From: Aliarcobacter sp.
GTDB lineage: Bacteria; Campylobacterota; Campylobacteria; Campylobacterales; Arcobacteraceae
NCBI GenBank assembly: GCA_028688995.1
Contig: JAQTXB010000013.1
Span: 1-64,000, forward strand
Length of the DNA: 64,000 nucleotides
Direction of reading: 5' to 3'
The notes under the pieces: generated by a model
The model's database searches: none
Told to the model about the DNA's origin: nothing
Seen by the model: the letters and a program-made list of their open reading frames with translations, nothing else
Shown: positions 13,635-24,096 of the stretch, piece by piece
Numbering within the stretch: the stretch's first letter is position 1
Layout of the letters: each line of letters opens with the position of its first letter
Translations under genes and position numbers: made by a program

Positions 13635-14725
13635 TTTGAATCCTTTAATAAGTTACATACTTTTGTTAAATCTTTTTCGTTTATATCAATTTTTGCAATT
13701 AATCTAATAATTGCTTCTTTTACTGTTGGTTGCCTAATCGCTCCAACTAAGTAGCCATTTTGCTTTAAATTTTCTTGTATTATTTTTACTTGTTTATTAT
13801 CACCAATTGAAATAGGAATAATTAAACTTTGGGAATTTAAACCCAAGATATTATGAATAATAGTTAAATTTGTTTTTATTTTTTCTTTTAGTGATTCTTT
13901 ATTTTTAATAATAAAATCTAAAGCTTCATTTGCAAGTGCCGTATCAAATAGTGATGGAGCAGTAGAGTAAATAATAGGTTTTGCTCTATTTGTAAGAAAA
14001 TCAATAATCTCTTTAGATGCTAAGATATAAGCTCCATATGAGCCATAAGCTTTACCTAAAGTTCCCATTTTTACATGATATTTGTTTGGTTTTATTTTGT
14101 AATAATCAAAAATACCCAAAAGATTATCACCAATAACACCAAAACTATGGGCTTCATCAACAATTAAAATTGCTTTTTTTTCATCTGCAAGTTTAAATAT
14201 TTCAATTGGAGCTAAATCTCCACCCATTGAATAAACACCTTCAATTGCAATTATATTTCTTCCACTTCTTTGATTTTTAGACATTTTTTGTTCTAAATCT
14301 TTAAAATCATTGTGTTTAAAAATAATAACTTGTTCAGGTTTTAAAAGTTTTGTGGCTAATATTCCACTTGCATGATACTCTTCATCTATAAATAAAGTAT
14401 CATTTTTTCTTGTTAGTGCTTCAATCATAGAAATATTTGCTAAAAATCCAGAACCTACAATAACTCCTGCTTCAAAACCATTAACTTCACATAATCTATC
14501 TTCAAACTTTTTGTGGATTTTACTATATCCATTTACAAGCATTGAGGCTTTTGGTGAGTGATAATTTTCTTTTAGAACGTTTTTATAAGCATTTTGAAAA
14601 AGGGTTTTATTTGTTGAAAGACCTAAATAATCATTTGAGGCTAAATCAATTAAAGTATCATCAAAAACTTCTCTTATTCTAAATCGATTTGACTTTTTGA
14701 TAGATTCTAATTCTTTTGAGTACAA
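13628..14725 (-). CDS. Alpha-oxoamine synthase family PLP enzyme (BioF-like)
   Basis: The 365-residue protein belongs to the group of 8-amino-7-oxononanoate synthase and glycine C-acetyltransferase. It shows ASNDYLGLS near residue 28, GSGFLANISMIEAL near residue 92, EGVYSMGGD, the PLP-contacting DEAHSFGVIG near residue 190, and GTLGKAYGSYGAYI near residue 222 with the Schiff-base lysine. The start is TTG with ACGGAG upstream. BioF activity for biotin synthesis is the most likely role in this phylum, but no other bio gene is near, so I leave the symbol empty. Confidence 0.85.
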   Translation of the reverse strand: MYSKELESIKKSNRFRIREVFDDTLIDLASNDYLGLSTNKTLFQNAYKNVLKENYHSPKASMLVNGYSKIHKKFEDRLCEVNGFEAGVIVGSGFLANISMIEALTRKNDTLFIDEEYHASGILATKLLKPEQVIIFKHNDFKDLEQKMSKNQRSGRNIIAIEGVYSMGGDLAPIEIFKLADEKKAILIVDEAHSFGVIGDNLLGIFDYYKIKPNKYHVKMGTLGKAYGSYGAYILASKEIIDFLTNRAKPIIYSTAPSLFDTALANEALDFIIKNKESLKEKIKTNLTIIHNILGLNSQSLIIPISIGDNKQVKIIQENLKQNGYLVGAIRQPTVKEAIIRLIAKIDINEKDLTKVCNLLKDSKC

Positions 14726-14829
14726 ATATTTCTCCGTAAGTATTTTTGTATGATAACTAAAAAGTGCTAATAAAAAATTAAATTTTGAAATTTGTATTAA
14801 GTGCTAGATTATTGCTACGATGAGTTGTT

Positions 14830-14910
14830 ATAATTCCTATACTAATTTTATATACAAGTCCAAAAAAGTAAGAGGTGTTTTTGCGACCTTCACCTCTTAC
14901 TTTTTTTATA
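14830..14910 (+). ncRNA. Candidate small RNA: TATAAT box followed by strong terminator hairpin
   Basis: The gap between the bioF-like gene and the first REC-PAS gene (14726-15049) has no protein frame I trust. It contains TATAAT at 14830-14835 and a perfect 16-base-pair hairpin, AAAAAAGTAAGAGGTG (14863-14878) with CACCTCTTACTTTTTT (14891-14906), followed by T and A. No gene on either strand ends here, since both neighbours start by diverging from the gap. A transcript of roughly 65 bases starting near 14842 would be ended by this hairpin. The -35 region is not convincing. Confidence 0.4.
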
Positions 14911-15049
14911 ATAATCTATCAAATACAAAATCATATGTTACGTTACTAAAAGCCTAATCCAAATAAATAATAATAAGATATAGCTAGAATTTAAATTAAT
15001 TATAATAATATATAATATAATAACGAAACTCGGGGGATTTATATTATAA

Positions 15050-16309
15050 ATGACATTAAATGAAAAACTTTTTAAAACATTAAATATTTTATATGTTGAA
15101 AATGATGAAAAAATAAAAGAGACTTTTTCACCAACTTTGAATAAGTTATTTAAAAAAGTTTTTTTCTGCACAGATGGATTATCTGCTCTAGAGCAATTTA
15201 CCAAGTTAAATAACAGTGAAGAAAAAATTGATGTCATCCTTAGTGAATACACAATTCCCTCATTAAATGGTTTAGAACTTTTATTGAAAATAAGAGATAT
15301 TAGTAAAAATGTTCCATTTATATTTGTTACTCAAGAAACAAATGTTGATTTATTATTAAATTCATTAAGATATGACGTAACGGATTATTTCTTTAAACCT
15401 ATTAATGAATATGAGATATTAAAGAAAATTGAAGAAGCTTGTATTGCAAGACAAGAAGAAGATGAAATTTTAAATTATCAAAATGAGATAGAAGAGTATT
15501 TAGAATTAATAAATAAAGTAGCAATTGTATATAGCTTTGATACAAATAGAGCAATGATTTATGTAAATAATCTTTTTAAAGAGTTGATTAAATATGATGA
15601 AGATGAGATATTAGGACAAGATTATAGAAGTTTTTTTCATAATGAGATGCCAAAGGTCATAATTGAAGAGCAAGGGCAAATTCTTCAAAGTGGAAATAAA
15701 TGGCAAGGAAAAATGAAATATTTAACAAGTATTGACTCAATATTTTATACAAATTGCACGATTATTCCTGTATTTGATGAGAATAAAAATATTAGAAAAT
15801 ATGTAAGTGTTAATTTTTTAACAACAAAAGAAGAGAATGATAAAAGAGAATTCAAAAAAAGAGTTCTTGTTGATATTCAAGAGACGAAAAGAATTTATTC
15901 AATTGCTCAACGAAAAATCGATGAATTAACTAATATTTTAACTTCATTTGATGATTATGACGAATTAAAAAAGAATTTAGATGAAGAACAAAAATTAAAT
16001 CAAAATTATTATACAGAACTTGAAGAGTTGGAAAATAAAGTTAAAATTGTAAAAGACAAATATGAACTTTTAACCGTTGGAATAAATAAAAAAATAAATC
16101 AAATTTCACTCATGACATCTGAAATGAAAAGTGCTGAACAAAGAACTAATAACAAAATTATTAATGTAGTTGAAGATATTAAAACAAAAGATTCACTTAT
16201 TGTAAAAATAAAAAATGAAATAGATATAAAGGGCACAAAAATAAGTGACTTAGAAGAAGTTTTAGAACATAGAAAAACTCAAATAGAAAATAAAAAGGCT
16301 AAATCTTAG
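15050..16309 (+). CDS. REC-PAS coiled-coil signalling protein with Glu at the phosphoacceptor site
   Basis: The 419-residue protein has a response-regulator receiver domain (about 8-125), a PAS-like domain (about 135-255) and a long coiled coil (about 265-419), with no DNA-binding or enzymatic output. The receiver keeps the Thr in FIFVTQ and the Lys in FFKPIN. The phosphoacceptor position, four residues before the conserved Pro in ILSEYTIP, is Glu66 instead of Asp. The acidic pocket reads VENDE. Glu often mimics phospho-Asp, so the domain may be locked in an active-like state. The next gene is a paralogue starting at the very next base. Confidence 0.82.
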   Translation: MTLNEKLFKTLNILYVENDEKIKETFSPTLNKLFKKVFFCTDGLSALEQFTKLNNSEEKIDVILSEYTIPSLNGLELLLKIRDISKNVPFIFVTQETNVDLLLNSLRYDVTDYFFKPINEYEILKKIEEACIARQEEDEILNYQNEIEEYLELINKVAIVYSFDTNRAMIYVNNLFKELIKYDEDEILGQDYRSFFHNEMPKVIIEEQGQILQSGNKWQGKMKYLTSIDSIFYTNCTIIPVFDENKNIRKYVSVNFLTTKEENDKREFKKRVLVDIQETKRIYSIAQRKIDELTNILTSFDDYDELKKNLDEEQKLNQNYYTELEELENKVKIVKDKYELLTVGINKKINQISLMTSEMKSAEQRTNNKIINVVEDIKTKDSLIVKIKNEIDIKGTKISDLEEVLEHRKTQIENKKAKS

Positions 16310-17554
16310 ATGTTTAATAATAGTTTCTTAAAAAAATTAAATATTTTATTTATTGAAAGTAATAATGAAGATAGAGAGCACTTTTCGAATATTTTATATA
16401 AATTTTTTAATAATGTAATTGTTTGTTCAACTGCAAAAGAGGGAATAGAAAGTTTTTTAGAGAAAAGAAAAGAGTATTTTATTGACATTATTATATGTGA
16501 TAAGAATATTGTTGATATTACTGGAATTGAAATACTGAAAAAGATTAGAGAAATAGATTCAGAAATTCCTTTTATAATTACAAGTCCTACCATTGAAATT
16601 GAAGATTTATTAACGGCTATTAAATTTAAAGCTACAGATTATTTATCAAAACCAGTAAATGCAAAAGATATGATTTTTTCTATTGAAAGAGTTTGTCATA
16701 ATAAATACCATGAAAGATTAAAGTTATTAATGCAACAGGATTTAGAAGATTTAAGAACCGTTATAAATGAAGTTGCCTTAGTTTCAAAAACAGATATAGA
16801 AGGAAATATAACCTTTGTAAATGGCTATTTTTGTGAAGTTTCAGCTTATACAAAAGAGGAGTTAATTGGACAAAATCATTTAATATTAAAAGATGAAAAA
16901 ACAAGTAGCTCAATATATAAAGATTTAATAGAAAAAGTAAATGATGGAATAATTTGGGAAGGTAAATTAAAAAATATATCAAAAACAAAAGAGGAATATT
17001 ATATATATTTAACAGTTCTTCCTATTTATGATAAAAATAATTCAACAATAAATGAATTTATATGGATAAGTTTTTTAACAACCGAAGCTGAACTTGAAGC
17101 AAAAGAGTTTAAAAGCAGAGTTGTTAGAAATATGTATGAAAATAGGAAAAATAACAATGAAGCAAGGGAAAAAATTGATGATCTTATGAATCAAATTTCT
17201 GAATATAGTGCAATGAAAACTTTATTAATTGAAGAGAAGCATAGAACATCAAAGTTTATTAATCAAATTAGTTTTTACGAAAAAGAGTTAGAAGTAACAG
17301 AAGATAAAATAAAAGAAATAAGTGAAAAAGTAAGTGATAAAATAAAAAAAGTTGTATCAACGCAAAAAGATGTTCAAGAAAAAAAAGATAAGGCAACTTT
17401 TATGTTAAATGATTTAACAACTGAGTTGAGCAATAAAAATAAAGAAGTGCAAGAATTAACAAAAGAACTCTCTTCACAGATGAATTCTATTAAAAAATTA
17501 ATGTTAAGTATTGATGAACTCGAAGAGAAATTAGCTAAAAACTTAGAAGAGTGA
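16310..17554 (+). CDS. REC-PAS coiled-coil signalling protein, paralogue
   Basis: The 414-residue product has the same layout as its neighbour: receiver (about 5-120), PAS-like (about 135-250, FVNGYFCEVSAYTKEELIGQNH) and coiled coil (about 265-414). Here the phosphoacceptor Asp64 is present in IICDKNIVD, with Thr in FIITSP and Lys in LSKPVN, but the usual acidic pair near residue 16 reads ESNNE and the conserved Pro after the phospho-Asp is Val. The ATG follows the previous stop codon directly. The two look like a tandem duplication. A scaffold or adaptor role is a guess. Confidence 0.82.
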   Translation: MFNNSFLKKLNILFIESNNEDREHFSNILYKFFNNVIVCSTAKEGIESFLEKRKEYFIDIIICDKNIVDITGIEILKKIREIDSEIPFIITSPTIEIEDLLTAIKFKATDYLSKPVNAKDMIFSIERVCHNKYHERLKLLMQQDLEDLRTVINEVALVSKTDIEGNITFVNGYFCEVSAYTKEELIGQNHLILKDEKTSSSIYKDLIEKVNDGIIWEGKLKNISKTKEEYYIYLTVLPIYDKNNSTINEFIWISFLTTEAELEAKEFKSRVVRNMYENRKNNNEAREKIDDLMNQISEYSAMKTLLIEEKHRTSKFINQISFYEKELEVTEDKIKEISEKVSDKIKKVVSTQKDVQEKKDKATFMLNDLTTELSNKNKEVQELTKELSSQMNSIKKLMLSIDELEEKLAKNLEE

Positions 17555-17559
17555 GAATT

Positions 17560-17892
17560 TTATAAAGTTATATTCTCCAAAAAATTAATCTCATTATCAG
17601 TCACAATAATTGCATCTATACAAAAAGCAACATCTAGTTTTTTTGTTTGTAAATAGTAATTAACACTTCTTTTTATTTTAGATAGTTTTGATTTTGTAAG
17701 GTTATTTATAGCAGTTTCATAGTCAGGAGCTGATTTTACTTCGCAAAAGTGATAAGTGGAGTTTTTTGTAGCAATAATATCTATTTCACCTAATTTTTTA
17801 GCGTAGAAATTTTGTTCAATTATTTGAAAATTTAAATCCTGCAAAAAAGAGATTGCTCTTTTTTCAGCAAAATCTCCTTTTTCTCTACTCAT
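17560..17892 (-). CDS. YraN/UPF0102 family nuclease-like protein
   Basis: The 110-residue protein begins MSREKGDFAEKRAISFL and contains KLGEIDIIATKNSTYHFCEVKS, the E-I-D...E-V-K motif of the restriction-endonuclease-like fold shared by the UPF0102 (YraN) family. The biochemical role of this family is not settled. It ends six bases from the convergent REC-PAS gene and lies 16 bases downstream of thiS, with which it is probably co-transcribed. Confidence 0.88.
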   Translation of the reverse strand: MSREKGDFAEKRAISFLQDLNFQIIEQNFYAKKLGEIDIIATKNSTYHFCEVKSAPDYETAINNLTKSKLSKIKRSVNYYLQTKKLDVAFCIDAIIVTDNEINFLENITL

Positions 17893-17908
17893 ACTTTTTT
17901 AGCCAAAA

Positions 17909-18109
17909 TCAACCACCACCAACAAATTGTAGAAGCTCAATTTTGTCATCATTTTTTGGAATAAAACTACTCCAATCATCTTTTTTTACAATATTCATAT
18001 TAACAGCTGCTGCCATTACTTTATTTTCTATTTGTAAATCTGTAATAATATTTTGTAGTGTTAATGAGTCATCAAACTCTTTTGTTTCACCATTTATTAT
18101 AAGTGTCAT
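17909..18109 (-). CDS. thiS: Sulfur carrier protein ThiS
   Basis: This 66-residue ubiquitin-like protein starts MTLIINGETKEFDDSLTL and ends in GGG, the Gly-Gly terminus that is adenylated and converted to thiocarboxylate to give sulfur for the thiazole ring of thiamine. AAGGT lies before the ATG. No other thi gene is in the window. It heads a short minus-strand unit with yraN, 51 bases downstream of the methyltransferase gene. Confidence 0.88.
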   Translation of the reverse strand: MTLIINGETKEFDDSLTLQNIITDLQIENKVMAAAVNMNIVKKDDWSSFIPKNDDKIELLQFVGGG

Positions 18110-21539: not shown

Positions 21540-21566
21540 ATAAGGTAAATTTTTACCTTATTTATT
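21535..21566. terminator. Bidirectional terminator between pyk and the histidine kinase
   Basis: AATAAATAAGGTAAA (21535-21549) pairs with TTTACCTTATTTATT (21552-21566). The hairpin spans both stop codons and has A/T-rich flanks, so it can end transcription from either side. Confidence 0.8.
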
Positions 21567-24096
21567 ATAAATTTAATAAAGTATCATTATTTAGAGGTTT
21601 TTTATAAACCTTTAAAGCTTTATTTTTTAAATTATCTTCAATATCATCTTCACATAATATAATAAGATTATTTGTAGATAATTCAGCTATTTTTTCTTTA
21701 TCTTTATTTTCTAATTTTGTTATATCAATAATAATTTTTGGATTATCTTCTTCAATTAAAAATAGTTGTACGATTTTTGATATTTGTTTCACATTATACT
21801 TTTTATTTAATTCAGTAATTATATTAAAGAAATATATTGGATTATTATTTAAGATATAAATTGATTCTTTATTTATAATTTGTTTTTTTGTATCAAATAA
21901 TATCTCTCTTTTAGAAATAGTGTTTTCATCATCTTTTTCTCTAATTTCATTTTGCGAATTTTGTATAGTTTCATCTAAAATAAAATCTAAATTTTTAGGA
22001 ATTAATACCTCAAAAGTCGAACCAATATTAAGTTGACTTGAAACAGTTATTTTTCCATTTAAAAGAGTAATAATCTCTTCACAAATCGAAAGTCCTAATC
22101 CTGTTCCCCCATATTTTCGTGCAATACTCTCATCTAATTGTTTAAATCTATCAAAAATATATTCTAATTTATTTTGAGGAATTCCTATTCCTTCATCTTT
22201 AATTATAATTTTTATATTATTCTTAGAATCTTCGACTAAAAAGTAGATTTTTCCTTTAGGTGTGAATTTTAGAGCATTACTTAAAAGGTTTTTTATTATT
22301 TGTTTGACTTTTATTTGATCACTATATATAAAGTCTAAATTATCATCTATTTTAAAAATCAATTCAAGATTCTTCATTTTTGTTTGTGTATAAAACATCT
22401 CATATATTGAAGTCATGTACTCTTTTATATTTATTTTTGTATATTGAACATGACTTTGTTTTGCTTCTAATTTTGACAAATCAAGAATGTCATTTATTAG
22501 ATTTAATAAATCTTTCCCACATTTATTGATTACTTCTAGATTTTTTACTTCTTTCTCATTAAGGTTTCCTGATTTATTTTTTACCATTATTTCACTAATA
22601 ATATTTATAGAATTTAAAGGAGTTTTTAATTCATGACTCATATTTGCTAGAAAATTATCTTTTGATTTATTAGCTTCTTCTGCAAAAATTTTAGCATCAT
22701 AAAGTTTTTTTGTTCTTTCATTTAGTTCATTTAACATTGAAACAAAATTAGAACTGAGTTGATGTATTTCTGAAATATTAGTATTAAGAACTTCTATATT
22801 TGTGTTGTTCTCTGATATTTGTGATGTTTGATTTGATAAATCGATAATAGGTTTTGTAATAGACTCTGAAAATATATTTATCTTTTTTAATAAAAGATAA
22901 AAGAAAATTATATAGAAAAATATTAAAAATATAATTGCTGCATAACCAATTTTATGTGATAGATTTTTTAAATATTCAATAGATGAAAAAAGATTGTTTT
23001 TATCAATTAAAATCATTAATTTCCAATTAGTTTCATCAATATTTTGTTGTAAAGTTAAATACTCATTATCTTCAATTTTTAACGTTGACTCGGATTCTTC
23101 ATTTTCAATTAGATTTTTAAAATGAGAAGCAAAAGGACTTTTATTTGTAAGAATATTGTATTCTTGGGGTTTAGAGATGGTTCTCAAAATTGAATCAGTA
23201 TAAAGATGCTCTTTTAACTCCTTTAAACCAAGTAAAGACTCAATCTTTTCTGGCATGGCAATAATCATACCATCTTTATCAACCATAAATAAATTTGCAT
23301 CATAGGGTAATTTAGTATTTAAAATATATTTTACAAATGTGTCGATTGTAATATCAAGTCCTGTAACTCCTTCTAAAAAGTTTTTATTATAAATTGGAAC
23401 AATACATGATAACATCCAACCATTTCCCGCAGGGTCTAAATATGCACTTGTCCAAACAGGTTTTTTCTCTGGATTATGTTTTAAATCTGCCAAGTAATAA
23501 AAATTATAATCTTCCATTTTGATATGTTCACCATATTGCTCATAAACTTTATCAATAAAGGGATAAAGTCTATTCATATTGTCCCAACTATTAAAATATG
23601 CAGCATTTATGATAGGATTGCTATCAACAACACTTTTTAATGATACATCCATGGCTTCTGTAAAAGTAGCCTTTCTTCTTTCAACATCTGTAATATTTGT
23701 TTTTGATGAATAATAAAGACTTGCGCCATTTTTATTTGTTTTATAAAATACACCATTAGAAGCAACATCAAACTTTGCATCAAAATTTGATAAATTATAT
23801 TGATTAAAATTAGACATTATATTTTCATGACTAGCTTGTAAAATTAATGCTGTTCTTGAGATTTCTGTTAATTTATTACTAATAATTGTTGCTTCATTTT
23901 CTAATATAGCTTTAGAGTGTGATTGTGCTTCTTTTAATAATAGAGCTGCATTTTTTGTTGAAATATATGTATTTATTGAAAAATATAAAATAATTAATGC
24001 AATTTCAACTATAAGTATTGGTATAAGTGAGAATTTAACAAAATGATTAGAAAGTATTTTCCCAAAATTCTTTCTTTTTTTTACAACTTCTTTCAT
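21565..24096 (-). CDS. Membrane sensor histidine kinase with degenerate receiver domain
   Basis: The 843-residue protein has a membrane helix at about 20-42, a large periplasmic double Cache-type sensor (about 45-380), a second helix at about 382-404, a HAMP-like linker, a HisKA domain with phospho-His488 in NMSHELKTPLNS, and an ATPase domain with N-box NLLSNALKFTP, DEGIGIP and GGTGLGLS. The last 110 residues look like a decayed receiver: IIIDITKL supplies an Asp and VYKKPLNND the Lys, but the acidic pocket is ILNNNP. No response regulator gene is adjacent. The periplasmic ligand cannot be read from the sequence. Confidence 0.88.
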   Translation of the reverse strand: MKEVVKKRKNFGKILSNHFVKFSLIPILIVEIALIILYFSINTYISTKNAALLLKEAQSHSKAILENEATIISNKLTEISRTALILQASHENIMSNFNQYNLSNFDAKFDVASNGVFYKTNKNGASLYYSSKTNITDVERRKATFTEAMDVSLKSVVDSNPIINAAYFNSWDNMNRLYPFIDKVYEQYGEHIKMEDYNFYYLADLKHNPEKKPVWTSAYLDPAGNGWMLSCIVPIYNKNFLEGVTGLDITIDTFVKYILNTKLPYDANLFMVDKDGMIIAMPEKIESLLGLKELKEHLYTDSILRTISKPQEYNILTNKSPFASHFKNLIENEESESTLKIEDNEYLTLQQNIDETNWKLMILIDKNNLFSSIEYLKNLSHKIGYAAIIFLIFFYIIFFYLLLKKINIFSESITKPIIDLSNQTSQISENNTNIEVLNTNISEIHQLSSNFVSMLNELNERTKKLYDAKIFAEEANKSKDNFLANMSHELKTPLNSINIISEIMVKNKSGNLNEKEVKNLEVINKCGKDLLNLINDILDLSKLEAKQSHVQYTKINIKEYMTSIYEMFYTQTKMKNLELIFKIDDNLDFIYSDQIKVKQIIKNLLSNALKFTPKGKIYFLVEDSKNNIKIIIKDEGIGIPQNKLEYIFDRFKQLDESIARKYGGTGLGLSICEEIITLLNGKITVSSQLNIGSTFEVLIPKNLDFILDETIQNSQNEIREKDDENTISKREILFDTKKQIINKESIYILNNNPIYFFNIITELNKKYNVKQISKIVQLFLIEEDNPKIIIDITKLENKDKEKIAELSTNNLIILCEDDIEDNLKNKALKVYKKPLNNDTLLNL

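Follow-up and report, generated by a model that had tools for sequence, protein, structure and literature searches.

Among the closest described systems is FrzS of Myxococcus xanthus, which resembles the proteins studied here in combining a pseudo-receiver with a C-terminal coiled coil, and whose receiver, lacking both the acceptor aspartate and Mg binding, is described as acting via protein contacts and localisation (PMC1974792, PMC12632262). Heterodimerisation of atypical response regulators has also been described. BldM and WhiI of Streptomyces are two orphan regulators that form a heterodimer without phosphorylation (PMC12632262, PMC4125116), and for CmrR and CmrT of Clostridioides difficile, a receiver and a pseudo-receiver encoded in one operon, a heterodimer has been proposed (PMC12632262). 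In the latter survey, the mechanism of pseudo-receivers outside plants is called largely unknown. Here, we analysed a tandem gene pair, termed A and B, in a window of 64,000 nucleotides from an Aliarcobacter sp. contig. Searches of open PubMed Central papers listed none on such a pair in Arcobacteraceae. We consider it about an even chance (roughly 0.5) that A and B assemble into a single heterodimer, which would serve as a largely phosphorylation-independent scaffold or adaptor.

Domain layout and active sites of the two proteins

Both genes are complete and lie on the forward strand, gene A (15050..16309) encoding a protein of 419 aa with Glu66 at the phospho-acceptor position and gene B (16310..17554) one of 414 aa with Asp64 but Ser17. 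The ATG of B comes immediately after the TAG stop codon of A and is in frame with it. An earlier sequence-only reading of this DNA, which had described the two genes as abutting without a gap and as sharing a receiver-PAS-coiled coil layout without an output domain, was right on both points, as Pfam assigns Response_reg and PAS to both proteins and no domain besides these, and long helices follow the PAS domain in the AlphaFold2 models. PF00072 is recognised in the receivers of A (residues 13-128, 15086..15433, E 2e-15) and B (residues 13-122, 16346..16675, E 5.3e-15). The models (mean pLDDT 85.2 for each, with 57 aligned family members as input for A and 56 for B) place the receiver first, followed by a 38-residue helix (in A residues 120-157, 15407..15520, connecting receiver and PAS), the PAS domain, and a C-terminal helical region of approximately 155 residues, which is modelled as one helix in B (residues 260-413, 17087..17548) and as two in A (residues 260-299 and 303-418, together 15827..16303). 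This region has a period of 3.50 residues in both proteins, with a periodicity signal exceeding all 500 shuffles in B and one of 29.2 in A, about 3 SD over the shuffled mean of 18.8 (best of 500 shuffles 32.6). Foldseek searches with the two models retrieved separate receiver and PAS/LOV folds, the whole architecture being absent among the 50 matches listed per model. A sigma-70 consensus scan of positions 14600-18000 gave no more sites than shuffled sequence.

Pocket positions were counted as in CheY. The pocket of A consists of Glu17, Asn18 (15101..15103) at the second acidic, metal-ligand position (DD2), Glu66 (GAA, 15245..15247) at the phospho-acceptor position, Thr94 (15329..15331) at the conserved Thr/Ser position, Tyr113, and the conserved Lys116 (15395..15397), and that of B of Glu16, Ser17 (16358..16360) at DD2, the acceptor Asp64 (GAT, 16499..16501), Ser92, Tyr111, and Lys114. 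These residues agree with the sequence-only reading, which had pointed to the glutamate in A with threonine and lysine kept, and to a weak acidic pocket around Asp64 in B; the weakness lies specifically in Ser17. Asn18 is an additional change absent from that reading. As Glu66 and Asn18 are invariant across the seven A proteins of alignment A1, the pattern in A is conserved and not a product of chance.

By the definition of PMC12632262, under which a domain recognised as PF00072 has at least one of DD, D, T, and K missing, the sequences make both A (Asn18, Glu66) and B (Ser17) pseudo-receivers. A is moreover an aspartate-less receiver, which B, with its retained Asp64, is not, and neither carries all five active-site residues of a canonical response regulator. 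According to the survey of aspartate-less receivers, the acceptor is most often replaced by glutamate (26%), and no more than 29% of these domains have an acidic residue at the second acidic position (PMC4395418); asparagine at DD2 and glutamate at D are likewise listed as common replacements, and substitutions of DD do not necessarily abolish phosphorylation (PMC12632262). B may thus be weakly phosphorylated, given that Asp64, Ser92, and Lys114 are retained. Nevertheless, the proposal that B is the switchable receiver of the pair is not supported, since the metal-ligand aspartate at DD2 is absent from all 15 copies of B, leaving the window with two pseudo-receivers. That A is constitutive-like through Glu66 is plausible. 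In one genome (G014; G and L numbers are our handles for genomes and loci), Glu and Asn are kept in A but Leu and Cys replace Thr and Tyr, which speaks against a simple Thr-dependent phosphomimic in that protein.

The PAS domains of A (about residues 160-255, 15527..15814) and B (about residues 157-256, 16778..17077) are of the Aer/MmoS type in fold and sequence similarity, and the flavin PAS domains of MmoS (3ewk), Aer (8dik), and NifL (2gj3) are among their best PDB matches. In Aer, the flavin is contacted by H53, R57, W70, N85, and R115 (PMC9668731). Despite the similarity to Aer, MmoS, and NifL, equivalents of these Aer contacts number zero of five in A and two of five in B of the window, and range from 0 to 1 in 14 of 14 A rows and from 0 to 3 in 14 B rows of the family alignment. 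All five are kept in 33 of the 89 other family members and one alone in 35 of the 89, so that their loss is not special to the pair. These residues suggest that the family probably originated as flavin-PAS receivers and that the pair has largely lost the flavin site. In the 33 relatives with all five contacts, the PAS domain adjoins a receiver that is canonical in most of them (e.g. L094:4039-5295 and L174:4078-5340). These proteins, which have a coiled coil but lack an output domain, are likely response regulators that sense redox state.

Distribution, genomic context, and evolution

Of 104 Arcobacteraceae genomes, 13 carry the A-B tandem, at 15 loci in total (the window genome G000, G008, G014, G029, G030, G032, G035, G100, G108, G116, G119, and, with two loci each, G004 and G016). 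An order-wide draw of 298 genomes yielded no match to the A query at E 1e-45 outside Arcobacteraceae, and those matches that carry a name come from Aliarcobacter MAGs, an Arcobacter MAG, an uncultured Campylobacteraceae MAG, and Poseidonibacter lekithochrous. Neither gene occurs without the other in the genomes searched, and the spacing between the stop codon of A and the start codon of B ranges from a 4-base overlap to a 15-base gap. Six genomes of the window's genus carry the pair flanked by bioF and a UPF0102 gene (for G014, whose contig ends inside A, the UPF0102 side alone is visible next to B). Of the 30 genomes with a UPF0102 match, 23 have these two genes adjacent without the pair, and one has no bioF in the fetched stretch. 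The pair was therefore gained or lost as a unit.

The same interval harbours a candidate small RNA (window 14802-14906, + strand, between bioF and gene A), consisting of a hairpin with the invariant loop TTTTTGCGACCTT and a T run. It is present once in the genome, occupies the same position in many genomes of the genus with or without the pair, and its 10-bp stem shows covariation, with 34 double changes vs. 10.3 in shuffles and pairing in 96.5% of cells. A search of the window against Rfam, including this candidate, gave no match.

No neighbouring gene is common to all pair loci. DUF3010, RidA-like, and aldose epimerase-like genes recur, with the DUF3010 gene immediately preceding the pair in G035, G116, and G119 (L073:3522-3938, L167:3515-3946, and L168:4766-5203; assigned by Pfam for the G116 copy and by sequence cluster for the others). 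The window also encodes a histidine kinase at 21565-24096 (- strand) with dCache, HAMP-like, HisKA, and HATPase domains, the C-terminal 140 residues of which have no Pfam match and by eye resemble a degenerate receiver with a KKPL motif near the end.

For the family analysis, 137 blast hits were reduced by a length and coverage filter to 117 rows, including the window pair; some family matches at E 1e-50 to 1e-54, for example in G074, G079, G080, G083, G086, G092, G117, and G120, fall outside this set. A and B, a tandem duplication, form separate clades, each with support of 100/100 in an IQ-TREE tree of 43 rows (including 16 hand-chosen single-gene relatives out of the 89) and of 1.0 in a FastTree tree of all 117 rows. 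The sequence-only reading had suggested aligning the receivers to see whether the glutamate of A is fixed, and had named aspartate in most orthologues as the result that would speak against it; glutamate is found in 10 of the 15 A copies, the close orthologues, and aspartate in the other five. All ten glutamate copies (nine full-length and the split G014 copy) also have Asn at DD2, and the five others (G100, G108, G029, and the second copies of G004 and G016) are canonical. Among the B copies, by comparison, eleven have Asp as acceptor, whereas G032 has Ser there, G029 has Gln, and the second copies of G004 and G016 have Glu. Thus, where a pair includes a canonical partner (5 of 15 loci), this is A and not B. 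Together with the metal-binding aspartate missing from every B, this indicates that the ancestral pair probably consisted of a true receiver, A, and a pseudo-receiver, B.

Across the whole family of 117, all 12 proteins that have Glu as acceptor lack the DD2 aspartate, vs. 12 of the 99 with Asp, an association with a Fisher p of 7e-10 that is overstated since the sequences are related. A single origin of the Glu-Asn combination in A was considered; the AU test (p 0.46) neither establishes nor rejects a clade of the nine full-length rows, which is compatible with one or two origins. Glutamate without the DD2 aspartate also occurs outside the A clade (L099:3950-5212, L193:3986-5296, and L105:2819-3934), and this combination seems to arise repeatedly. 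In another receiver-PAS protein of the window genome (contig C19, L126:4075-5136), DD2 is occupied by Ser and the Thr position by Ala.

Purifying selection acts on both A and B, with dN/dS values between the window and G004 of about 0.16 (A) and 0.10 (B). The receiver is the most conserved domain of B, and also of A in two of three comparisons, whereas vs. G004 the PAS domain of A is more conserved. Gene B is broken in G108 (L169:5253-6483) and in the second pair of G016 (L076:4026-5479), both with a canonical A, i.e. at two of the five canonical-A loci and none of the ten Glu-A loci, numbers too few to conclude from. Judging by these copies, B can be dispensable at some canonical-A loci.

Several single-gene relatives are located next to chemosensory genes. 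In a 450-aa subfamily (L106-L112 and L114-L123; L107:4066-5418 in the window's own genome), a gene for a canonical receiver-PAS-coiled coil protein lies directly behind cheW at 17 of 17 loci, and its product is possibly an undescribed chemosensory partner. At L098, L099, and L193, receiver-PAS-coiled coil genes are part of chemosensory clusters that also encode MCPs and a CetB-like protein of 127-130 aa with an Aer-like PAS, accompanied by HDOD genes at L098 and L099, a CheA-like gene at L099, and a cheW-cluster gene at L193. The clusters in G018 and G124 contain cheA or cheW genes besides the MCP and CetB-like PAS genes. These neighbours were called by Pfam for G017, G018, and one cheW, and otherwise by sequence clusters, and they are a lead for the family rather than evidence for the pair.

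Predicted coil pairing and competing explanations

The sequence-only reading had further proposed that the coils of A and B pair with each other, which charge patterns, the always-tandem genes, and their tight spacing favour as a prediction. Charge contacts between g and e' positions were scored with a home-made, crude predictor that assumes parallel dimers in register, in 12 of the 15 pairs, which are mutually related (G014, where A is split over two contigs, and the two pairs with a broken B were left out). A heterodimer index was calculated by subtracting the average of the two homodimer scores, A:A and B:B, from the A:B score. Consensus registers give a positive index for all 12 pairs under each of six settings (mean +4.1 to +5.2), compared with a mean of -3.5 and a maximum of 3.0 for 25 within-genome pairs of single-gene paralogues. 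With per-sequence registers, the mean index is positive in six of six settings (+1.2 to +4.9), with A:B above both homodimers in only 4, 6, 7, 8, 9, and 11 of the 12 pairs, depending on the setting; a first version of the charge test gave 12 of 12. By this predictor, the coil charges thus favour A:B over A:A and B:B, less clearly so with per-sequence registers. Two further cues were set aside: the net charges of the two coils show no simple acidic/basic split, and the shared heptad phase (A vs. B mean 31 degrees) was discounted because paralogues would agree anyway.

In the preferred heterodimer, each strand of a parallel A:B coiled coil of approximately 155 residues (about 23 nm if fully helical) would carry one receiver and PAS head. 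Asn18 would abolish the metal site of the A receiver and Glu66, next to Thr94 and Lys116, would fix that receiver in one conformation, and the B receiver would, for want of the metal-ligand aspartate, be at best a poor phospho-acceptor. Each of the two receiver faces would bind a partner of its own, possibly a histidine kinase, a chemosensory protein, or a true response regulator, with expression or partner binding exerting control instead of phosphorylation. The ancestors would be receiver-PAS-coiled coil proteins encoded by single genes and acting as homodimers, a group in which many members still show the flavin-PAS signature, and A would have exchanged Asp for Glu after the first pair of true receiver and pseudo-receiver had formed. 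In the fuller version of this history, two pseudo-receivers, each with a pseudo-PAS domain, would be obligate heterodimer partners that evolved stepwise from flavin-PAS receiver homodimers by duplication, loss of the metal site in one partner, and then a Glu-Asn lock in the other; this is a tentative proposal to which we give somewhat less than even odds.

The original idea of one fixed and one switchable subunit can be kept if A is locked on by Glu66 and B is the working switch of the A:B heterodimer, phosphorylated on Asp64 by an unlinked kinase. The B proteins of the window clade do keep Asp64, Ser92, and Lys114, their receiver is their most conserved domain, the consensus-register charges would pair the coils in the same way, and histidine kinase genes occur in the vicinity of the pair in G116, G035, and G100 and, judged by sequence cluster only, in G119. 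Yet the DD2 aspartate is lost from every copy, the acceptor itself has been replaced in the B proteins of G032, G029, and the second copies of G004 and G016, and the canonical partner, where there is one, is A, and we therefore regard a working switch in B as unlikely. The sequence-only reading as a whole is, then, partly supported.

Alternatively, the pair may be a chemosensory adaptor, derived from receiver-PAS-coiled coil partners of CheA/CheW/MCP arrays and now held in a fixed state. The relatives of the same architecture behind cheW (17 of 17 loci of the 450-aa subfamily) or beside MCP and CetB-like PAS genes (G017, G018, and G124), and the closeness of the PAS domain to Aer and MmoS, are consistent with such a descent, but the genes around the pair loci, ten of them run on Pfam, include none recognised as chemosensory, and this explanation is doubtful as well.

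It is less probable still that A and B are separate homodimers with independent roles that are merely co-transcribed. Single-gene relatives do score as homodimers (mean +4.6, n = 66, vs. +1.1 for random pairs of them), the paralogues share their heptad phase, and the coupling of two genes is no proof of a complex; however, in most consensus-register settings A:A and B:B score around zero or negatively whereas A:B is positive, and A and B are always found together in the genomes searched. Finally, although active-site and flavin residues have been lost and B is broken at two loci, decay of functionless duplicates is very improbable, given the dN/dS values of about 0.1-0.2 and the intact state of both genes over several genera.

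Comparison with known systems

If the heterodimer reading is true, extant Arcobacteraceae would offer a natural series from phospho-switch to scaffold, as one family holds intermediate (true receiver plus pseudo-receiver) and fully degenerate stages in addition to homodimer-like single-gene relatives. With these stages side by side, the effect of losing the switch could be approached by swapping orthologues, and the coil charges provide a concrete and cheap handle on obligate pairing.

The residue changes in A and B are typical of those compiled in the surveys of aspartate-less receivers and pseudo-receivers (PMC4395418, PMC12632262), in the consulted parts of which a tandem receiver-PAS-coiled coil pair is not described. 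CmrR and CmrT, although close in combining a receiver with a pseudo-receiver, are OmpR-family regulators with a linked kinase. FrzS differs from A and B in being encoded by a single gene and in having Ala at the acceptor position (PMC4395418). The descriptions consulted mention neither a PAS domain nor a partner paralogue in FrzS, and the likeness drawn here is at the level of domain type. BldM and WhiI regulate genes, unlike A and B, which have no output domain and instead carry PAS domains and long coils; they are the counterpart of the proposed A:B assembly in pairing without phosphorylation. FrzS and BldM-WhiI, as described in the sources cited, give each half of the scaffold idea a precedent in nature.
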